Of a DNA stretch of 55,101 nt, positions 48,714 through 50,311 are shown one piece after another. The notes under the pieces were generated by a model, which was given only the letters and a program-made list of their open reading frames with translations, searched no databases and had not been told where the DNA came from. A program made the translations under genes and the position numbers. Numbering within the stretch: the stretch's first letter is position 1; every line of letters begins with the position of its first letter. Source of the DNA: an uncultured Lentisphaerota bacterium (GTDB lineage: Bacteria; Verrucomicrobiota; Kiritimatiellia; CAIQIC01); contig CAISWQ010000079.1 of NCBI GenBank assembly GCA_903889245.1, positions 64,876-119,976 of the forward strand, given 5' to 3'.

Positions 48714-48751
48714 ATCGGTAGGGAAAATCCGCCAAGACCAGAAAGGAACGA

Positions 48752-50311
48752 ATGCCGATGAAACACACAGCACATACTTGCCACTGTCACTGTTGCGCCG
48801 CGCACGGCATGAGCCGCCGCCACTTCCTCTACAGCGTCGGCGCCGCCACGGTCGCGGGCCTCGCCGCGCCGGTGTGGGCTGCCGAGGCGGCCAGCGGTTA
48901 CGCGCCACAGCGCCGCCCGCGCACGCGGCAGCCGCTCTGCGTCCAGCCGGTGCTGACCTACGATCTGCCCAAGCGCCGCGAGGCGACGAGCTGGCGCAAC
49001 TGGGGCGGCATCCAGACGGAGCAAGATGTGCAGGCCGAGCGGGAACGGCTCGCCAAGGAACTGAAGAAGATCGCCGACACCGCTGACTTTCCGCTGGAAC
49101 TCAAACCGCTGACGCCAGTGCGCACGCTGGAGCAGGCCGGTGAGATTGCGAAGGGCCGTCACGATGTGCTGCTGCTGTTCGCGGCGGGCGGCGGGGTCAA
49201 GCTGCTCGAGGCGCTGACCGTGGCGGGCAAGCATAACCTGATGTTCCTGCGTCACGATCCGGGGCCGGCCTATCTCTGGTATGAGATCGTCCATCCGCGT
49301 TTTCTGCGCAAGACGGTGGACGACTACGGCCAGCCCGGCTGGGACGTGAACGACGTGGTCGTGGATAGCTTCGCGGACCTCACCTGGCGGCTGCGCGCGC
49401 TCGGCGGACTGAAGAACACGCTGAACAAGCGCGTGGTCTGCATCGGCGGCGCAAGCGGGTGGGGCGCGGGCGGCCGCACGGCGCCGGCGCGCACGCAGGA
49501 ATTGTGGAAGATGGACTTGGTCAACTATCCCTACAAGGACCTCGCGCCGCGTATTGCCGCCGCGCGCCAGAACGCCGCGCTCGTCGCCGCGTGCGCCGCG
49601 GCAGCGGAGAAATATTTGAGCCCGTGGCGCGTCTCGCTGAAGACCACGCGCGAGTTCGTCAACAACGCCTTCGTGCTGACCGAGGTGTTCAAGGACGTCA
49701 TGGATGAGGTGCAGACCGATGCGTTCACGATCAACTCGTGCATGGGTACGATCATGGGCATGTCGCAGACCACAGCGTGTCTGCCGTTGAGCCTGCTCAA
49801 CGACGAGGGCTACCTCGCGTTCTGCGAGTCGGACTTCGTCGTGATCCCGTCCGGCATCCTGCTGCACTACATCTGCGGCCTGCCGGTCTTCCTCAATGAC
49901 CCGACGCTGCCGCACGACCGCGTTGTCACGCTCGCCCACTGCACCGCGCCGCGCAAGATGGACGGCAAGCGGAGCGAGCCGGTGAAGATCCTGACGCACT
50001 TCGAGTCCGACTACGGCGCGGCGCCGAAGGTCGAGATGCGGACCGGCCAGCTTTGCACCAACCTCGTGCCGGACTTCGCGAGCAAGAAGTGGGTCGGCTT
50101 TGCCGGGACGATCACCGGCAACCCGTTCCACGACATCTGCCGTTCGCAGATTGACGTGCAGATCCACGGCGACGCCGGCGCGCTCCTACGCGAGATGAAG
50201 GGCTTCCACTGGATGATGTCCTACGGCGATTACCTGCGTGAGACCGGCTACGCGCTGCAGAAGGTCGGCGTGGACTTCCTCAATGTCAGCGCCCCGCCGC
50301 CGGCGACGTGA
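48752..50311 (+). CDS. Tat-exported L-fucose isomerase-like protein
   Basis: 519 residues. A Cys/His-rich leader (HTCHCHCCAAH) precedes a twin-arginine motif SRRHFL and a hydrophobic stretch ending APVWAAEA. The C-terminal half (MGMSQTTACLPLSLLNDEG, AFCESDFVVIPSGILLHYICG, VVTLAHCTAPRKMDG) matches the L-fucose/L-arabinose isomerase-related group COG2407, including a CE pair and AHC in places where metal ligands sit in that group. Such enzymes are normally cytoplasmic; export through Tat is unusual and a true isomerase activity is unproven. AAGGA supports the ATG at 48752. It lies among fucosidases, upstream of GH95. Confidence 0.75.
   Translation: MPMKHTAHTCHCHCCAAHGMSRRHFLYSVGAATVAGLAAPVWAAEAASGYAPQRRPRTRQPLCVQPVLTYDLPKRREATSWRNWGGIQTEQDVQAERERLAKELKKIADTADFPLELKPLTPVRTLEQAGEIAKGRHDVLLLFAAGGGVKLLEALTVAGKHNLMFLRHDPGPAYLWYEIVHPRFLRKTVDDYGQPGWDVNDVVVDSFADLTWRLRALGGLKNTLNKRVVCIGGASGWGAGGRTAPARTQELWKMDLVNYPYKDLAPRIAAARQNAALVAACAAAAEKYLSPWRVSLKTTREFVNNAFVLTEVFKDVMDEVQTDAFTINSCMGTIMGMSQTTACLPLSLLNDEGYLAFCESDFVVIPSGILLHYICGLPVFLNDPTLPHDRVVTLAHCTAPRKMDGKRSEPVKILTHFESDYGAAPKVEMRTGQLCTNLVPDFASKKWVGFAGTITGNPFHDICRSQIDVQIHGDAGALLREMKGFHWMMSYGDYLRETGYALQKVGVDFLNVSAPPPAT

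Follow-up and report, generated by a model that had tools for sequence, protein, structure and literature searches.

Members of an AraA/FucI-fold protein family from uncultured bacteria carry a conserved cysteine leader ahead of a predicted Tat signal

Introduction

Sugar isomerases of the AraA/FucI fold are known as cytosolic enzymes, and the Tat pathway exports folded proteins. The locus studied here lies in a 55,101-nucleotide stretch of contig CAISWQ010000079.1 from an uncultured Lentisphaerota bacterium (hereinafter the window) and combines the two, encoding an isomerase-like protein that begins with a Tat-type signal preceded by a cluster of cysteines and histidines. This raises three linked questions: whether the leader is a genuine part of the protein, what kind of protein follows it, and what a peptide placed in front of the twin arginines might do before the signal is removed.

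Organization of the gene

The gene occupies positions 48752..50311 of the forward strand, on which all features below are located, as a reading frame of 519 residues plus stop that is open throughout and starts MPMKHTAHTCHCHCCAAHGMSRRHFLYSVGAATVAGLAAPVWA. The frame, its orthologues and its fold point to a Tat-exported protein of the AraA/FucI fold. Just upstream of the first ATG, and hence of the Cys/His leader, the sequence AAAGGAA (48742..48748) is a likely ribosome-binding site. The n-region leader comprises residues 1–21 (48752..48814), with four Cys and five His, and includes the cluster HTCHCHCCAAH at residues 8–18 (48773..48805). It is followed by the twin arginines R22 and R23 of an S-R-R-x-F-L motif (48815..48820), which are invariant in the alignment discussed below, and then by the hydrophobic and c-regions, residues 24–43 (48821..48880), ending in V-W-A, the predicted signal peptidase I site. 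The predicted mature enzyme extends over 48881..50308, with the alignment to the AraA/FucI fold beginning at about residue 56.

Fold and metal ligands of the mature part

Family databases leave the mature part without a name. In Pfam, no domain scores above cut-off for the window protein, the only match being an irrelevant tRNA-synthetase-arm domain at E 0.25; NCBIfam does not name its isomerase domain and PHROG gives no convincing match. Two close homologues match nothing in Pfam, the Fucose_iso and AraA families included, and a distant exported paralogue matches only AraA_central, whose 17.2 bits fall short of the cut-off of 24. Profile and structural comparisons are more informative. A profile of 42 family members searched against the PDB recovers AraA (E 3e-6) and FucI (E 2e-4), the remaining matches being AraA/FucI-type isomerases only, save for two weak unrelated ones at E 0.16, and hhalign aligns the family profile to FucI at E 9e-6. 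The AlphaFold2 model (mean pLDDT 86, pTM 0.84) matches AraA in Foldseek at E 4e-18, while VIA places FucI and AraA at Z 26.5–28.8 over 420–438 residues, with FucI at Z 28.8 and the next unrelated fold at Z 8.6. The window protein thus resembles the known AraA and FucI structures (PDB 2ajt, 4f2d, 1fui and 4c21) in full-length fold, profile homology and metal-ligand positions, but differs from them in its low identity (9–14%), its predicted Tat export, its Cys/His presequence and the lack of a match to their Pfam families. On the strength of the model, the whole mature part is predicted to adopt the AraA/FucI fold; its subfamily lies outside the coverage of Pfam.

Four residues align with metal ligands of these enzymes, and we take the roles of the aligned FucI and AraA residues to be those of metal ligands. 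E359 (49826..49828) aligns with FucI E337 and AraA E306, and H396 (49937..49939) with AraA H350, both being invariant in 42/42 family members. D383 (49898..49900) aligns with FucI D361, with AraA E333, which is the ligand in AraA, aligning one residue before it. H486 (50207..50209) aligns with AraA H450 in a forced global alignment and is nearly invariant in the 42 members. The equivalences come from profile alignment at 10–17% identity, in which the C-terminal part is forced and the correspondence is weakest at H486. All four residues are invariant in the alignment of the window protein with 18 orthologues. An absence of metal ligands, which the earlier note had considered fatal to its description of the protein as isomerase-like, is ruled out by this alignment and conservation, and that description is borne out by the full-length fold and the profile matches in the PDB.

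The earlier note had also offered a sugar-binding role. In its N-terminal half the protein does weakly resemble periplasmic binding proteins (Z about 7), a similarity to be expected of folds that have a Rossmann-like arrangement in common, and one could imagine from it that catalysis was lost and that the protein, once exported, now functions in sugar binding or as a structural component. However, periplasmic binding proteins stay below Z 8 in VIA, against Z 27–29 for the isomerases, and the aligned metal ligands together with much of the surrounding sequence do not vary across the 19 aligned sequences, which span several phyla. A sugar-binding role is therefore unlikely, and we regard a loss of catalysis as very improbable. 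Membership of the AraA/FucI isomerase type, instead, is a class assignment that we make with high confidence.

Signal-less AraA/FucI-like proteins from the same phyla (L028, L031, L047 and others) are homologous to the window protein and share E359 and H396 with it without exception in the joint alignment. They differ in lacking both signal and Cys leader, in being shorter, in having Asn at the position of D383 in most cases, and in forming a separate branch of the tree. A further kind of exported isomerase-fold protein is encoded at L264 (G000:C48), which matches Fucose_iso_C (PF02952) and has a Tat-like start, MNNPRWKARPLAACGRRSFFQQAGW.

A conserved leader before the twin arginines

A homologue scan covering one genome per species of GTDB bacteria and archaea recovered 21 loci with 60–76% identity over the best segment. 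The leader alignment consists of the window protein and 18 distinct full-length homologues (59–73% identity) from MAGs labelled Verrucomicrobia, Kiritimatiellae, Lentisphaerae, Planctomycetia and Acidobacteria. All 19 aligned sequences have three to five Cys before the twin arginines, with a CxCC or CCxC core; in window numbering, C12 is invariant and C15 nearly so. The earlier note had seen a Tat signal preceded by HTCHCHCCAAH in this reading frame and had proposed looking for the leader in orthologues, and both its observation and the conservation of the leader hold, a Cys leader being present in 18 of the 18 close homologues. The leaders are 14–38 residues long and poorly conserved at non-Cys positions, although His often accompany the Cys.

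The same note had held that orthologues starting at the Met directly before the twin arginines would refute its reading. In at least 14 of the 18 close homologues, the stretch from the Cys cluster to the twin arginines contains no in-frame start codon, making a later start impossible in those. Together with the AAAGGAA preceding the first ATG, this indicates that the leader is translated, and a start at Met20 is ruled out because most orthologues lack a start codon at that point. Likewise, the 19/19 conservation and the control Tat signals described below rule out a chance composition of the leader.

The Cys of the aligned leaders are encoded by a mixture of codons, 53 TGC and 22 TGT, as would be expected if the residue rather than a DNA word is conserved. 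This bears on whether the Cys codons constitute a cysteine-responsive translational attenuator or regulatory leader, with the peptide having no role of its own. Cys-rich leader peptides do control downstream genes in other bacteria, but the leader here is in frame with the enzyme rather than in a separate reading frame, TGC and TGT vary while Cys is kept, and length and spacing vary too; we consider such regulation the least probable of the explanations discussed here. The spacing of the Cys ranges over CxCxCC, CxCC, CCxC, CCP and CxxC, and this variability is easier to reconcile with a loose metal or thiol chemistry than with a single defined site.

A literature search, with subscription journals mostly outside its reach, found neither a Tat signal with such a Cys motif nor an exported isomerase of this kind, an absence that weighs little in either case. 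The fold and the export route are already known, and it is the conserved Cys feature of the signal peptide that appears to be undescribed, in that we found no description of it.

The Tat signal and its controls

The Tat model TIGR01409 matches residues 21–43 of the window protein, twin arginines included, at 16.0 bits, just under the cut-off of 16.7, and at 20.7 bits, above it, in the genome scan. TatC is encoded in the same genome, and inspection by eye finds a small-x-Ala cleavage-type site approximately 18–27 residues past the twin arginines in about 18 of the 19 aligned sequences. By its motif, hydrophobic region and cleavage site, and with TatC in the genome, the gene product is a predicted Tat substrate. 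The cleavage-type site also speaks against a different arrangement, in which the signal stays uncleaved as an anchor, the Cys/His cluster serves as a sensor or attachment point on the cytoplasmic face, and the enzyme faces outward. Tat signals are inserted N-in, so that an uncleaved leader would indeed remain cytoplasmic, but with this site so widely kept we think an anchor improbable.

The signal resembles ordinary Tat signals (TIGR01409) in its S/T/N-R-R-x-F motif, hydrophobic region and Ala-type cleavage site, and departs from them in its leader. As controls we sampled 90 of the 135 Tat-model sites of the same genome and 30 of 75 from an Acidobacteriota genome. Against the 14–38 residues and three to five Cys of the window family, the 90 own-genome leaders average 9 residues, 83 of them have no Cys, and none contains a CxCC, CCxC or CxCxC motif. 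The single instance among the 30 Acidobacteriota leaders, GCACC before the twin arginines, belongs to a paralogue that is 26% identical to the window protein. The motif is thus seen in none of about 118 unrelated Tat signals of the two genomes, and a general Tat-signal trait of these genomes is ruled out, the only case among the 120 sampled being itself a family paralogue.

The only other three-Cys leader in the own-genome sample belongs to a GH116 enzyme. This beta-glucosidase-like, Tat-type protein (L181; G000:C87:10787-13867) has a Cys leader of its own, MKCESKNCGCTGSTRRDF, as does the copy in one congener (L184), MTETCSGKQCACGGSTRRDF, while the leader is missing from the more distant GH116 homologues that could be read. 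In several exported paralogues of the window protein (L026, L037, L049, L072, L074 and L244), a Cys cluster is found within the hydrophobic region right after the twin arginines (GCAACAGC type). Three Cys in the hydrophobic region occur in none of the 120 control Tat signals.

The wider family

Beyond the close homologues, Cys leaders are present in homologues of 44–58% identity and in several exported paralogues of 24–31%, as exemplified by MCNCCQNLNRRQF, MNPSHHHHHCQCCISRRDC and MKRKHNCLCCRPAGRREF. The genome itself encodes a second copy with a Cys leader, MQTNLGCAGCPMNRRRF. In a tree built from the catalytic part, the leader is found in 43 of 61 exported family members and in 29 of the 31 members of the window's clade (the labels for L071, L078, L086 and L253 being set by eye), and the trait requires five changes, with gain and loss not distinguished in direction. 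The other 18 of the 61 exported relatives have no such leader, so export of this fold does not strictly require it.

The gene is rare: at E 1e-60, 4 of the 387 genomes sampled from the phylum carry it, and no relative of at least 60% identity was detected in the three congeners searched. In the phylum of the homologue L019, 12 of 247 genomes carry a homologue at E 1e-40. A Kiritimatiellae MAG (G412, the genome of L008) contains eight matches to the isomerase family, several with Cys leaders, and the exported branch is apparently expanded there.

Genomic context and the question of fucose

In the window, the isomerase-like gene follows genes for a DUF4450/DUF608 glycosidase-like protein, an alpha-L-fucosidase (GH29) and a GH43 protein, and is followed by GH95 and GH5-like genes. 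The fucosidase and GH95 surroundings described in the earlier note are thus confirmed, with GH43 as a further neighbour. From them the note had suggested that the enzyme converts L-fucose freed by the neighbouring fucosidases outside the cytoplasm, a proposal with which both the flanking GH29, GH43 and GH95 genes and the fold shared with FucI agree. The orthologues tell against it. Their loci supply 69 neighbour proteins matching 131 Pfam families; among the top 25 families listed, none occurs in more than three of the 69 proteins, and no match to the window's GH29 or GH95 proteins was found among these neighbours. A conserved operon is ruled out by the unrelated genes around the orthologues, one of which adjoins a GH78 rhamnosidase. 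Moreover, the same genome encodes an ordinary canonical cytosolic FucI, and the fold is equally close to AraA and FucI. With neighbours that are not conserved and a cytosolic FucI at hand, fucose becomes one possible substrate among many. Given also the lack of a relative in the three congeners, extracytoplasmic fucose conversion is unsupported as a claim about this protein, and as an account of its role we rate it as decidedly unlikely.

Two orthologue loci, L010:12246-15520 and L011:11288-14836, share nearby genes for an AP_endonuc_2 TIM-barrel protein, a Tat-type GFO/IDH/MocA protein and a DUF6807-type protein, differently arranged.

A possible role for the leader

As signal peptidase would cut the leader off, it is best seen as a pre-export device that the mature enzyme lacks. 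A loosely spaced Cys/His cluster resembles soft-metal- or thiol-responsive peptides, and for this reason a pre-export metal or redox device is the role we favour, in conjunction with the enzyme reading and at tentative strength. Taken as a whole, a Tat-exported metal-dependent isomerase-type enzyme whose Cys/His leader acts as a metal or thiol device before export is a combination to which we grant somewhat less than an even chance. In outline, the protein would fold, assemble and acquire its catalytic divalent metal while still in the cytoplasm, leave in folded form via Tat, and then have a sugar or keto-sugar as its extracytoplasmic substrate. The least certain step concerns the precursor while still cytoplasmic, in which the cluster might bind a soft metal such as Zn, Cu(I) or Fe(II) or respond to thiol state. 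That state could then govern the availability of the adjacent twin arginines to TatC, or bar the wrong metal from the active site, after which signal peptidase would remove leader and signal together. The more specific proposition that this cleavable presequence is a built-in metal or thiol checkpoint, by which only a folded and correctly metallated isomerase is passed to Tat, is one that we advance as doubtful.

Precedent for loading metal in the cytoplasm before Tat export comes from MncA as compared with CucA; for MncA, a Mn-cupin, metal selection takes place in the cytoplasm, out of reach of the Cu and Zn of the periplasm (PMC4192464). By analogy, a Mn/Co/Fe-type isomerase-like enzyme may have its metal chosen in the cytoplasm prior to Tat export. 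MncA is a working analogy as a metalloenzyme exported folded, but it has an unrelated fold, and in the passage describing it no Cys/His leader is mentioned (PMC4192464).

The position of the leader also permits an interaction with another protein. Cofactor-loaded Tat substrates have signal-binding chaperones of the TorD/DmsD type, and the leader sits in the n-region adjoining the twin arginines, where such chaperones attach. It might accordingly serve as a tag by which a dedicated export chaperone or a particular Tat component recognizes the precursor, with the Cys making protein contacts rather than binding metal. Its confinement to one family among the sampled Tat signals agrees with this, a flexible peptide would suit the variable Cys spacing, and docking of a partner would yield equal conservation. 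Nevertheless, the orthologue loci offer no conserved neighbour gene as a chaperone candidate, and only Cys, often with His, is conserved where a protein contact should retain other side chains. We hold such a tag to be unlikely, though somewhat less so than the uncleaved anchor, and prefer to both the pre-export metal or redox device.

Implications

On the tree, family members devoid of a signal group apart and have no Cys leader, and in uncultured environmental bacteria one branch of the family is, judging by its signals, apparently exported in folded form. Folded export of an isomerase branch would imply that sugars are interconverted outside the cytoplasm. The Cys/His presequence opens the question of whether a signal peptide is itself able to monitor metal or redox state ahead of Tat export; were the checkpoint to hold, the presequence would perform a job so far assigned to separate chaperone proteins. 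For the family as such, CxCC before the twin arginines would provide a usable annotation mark for a so far unnamed isomerase-like subfamily.
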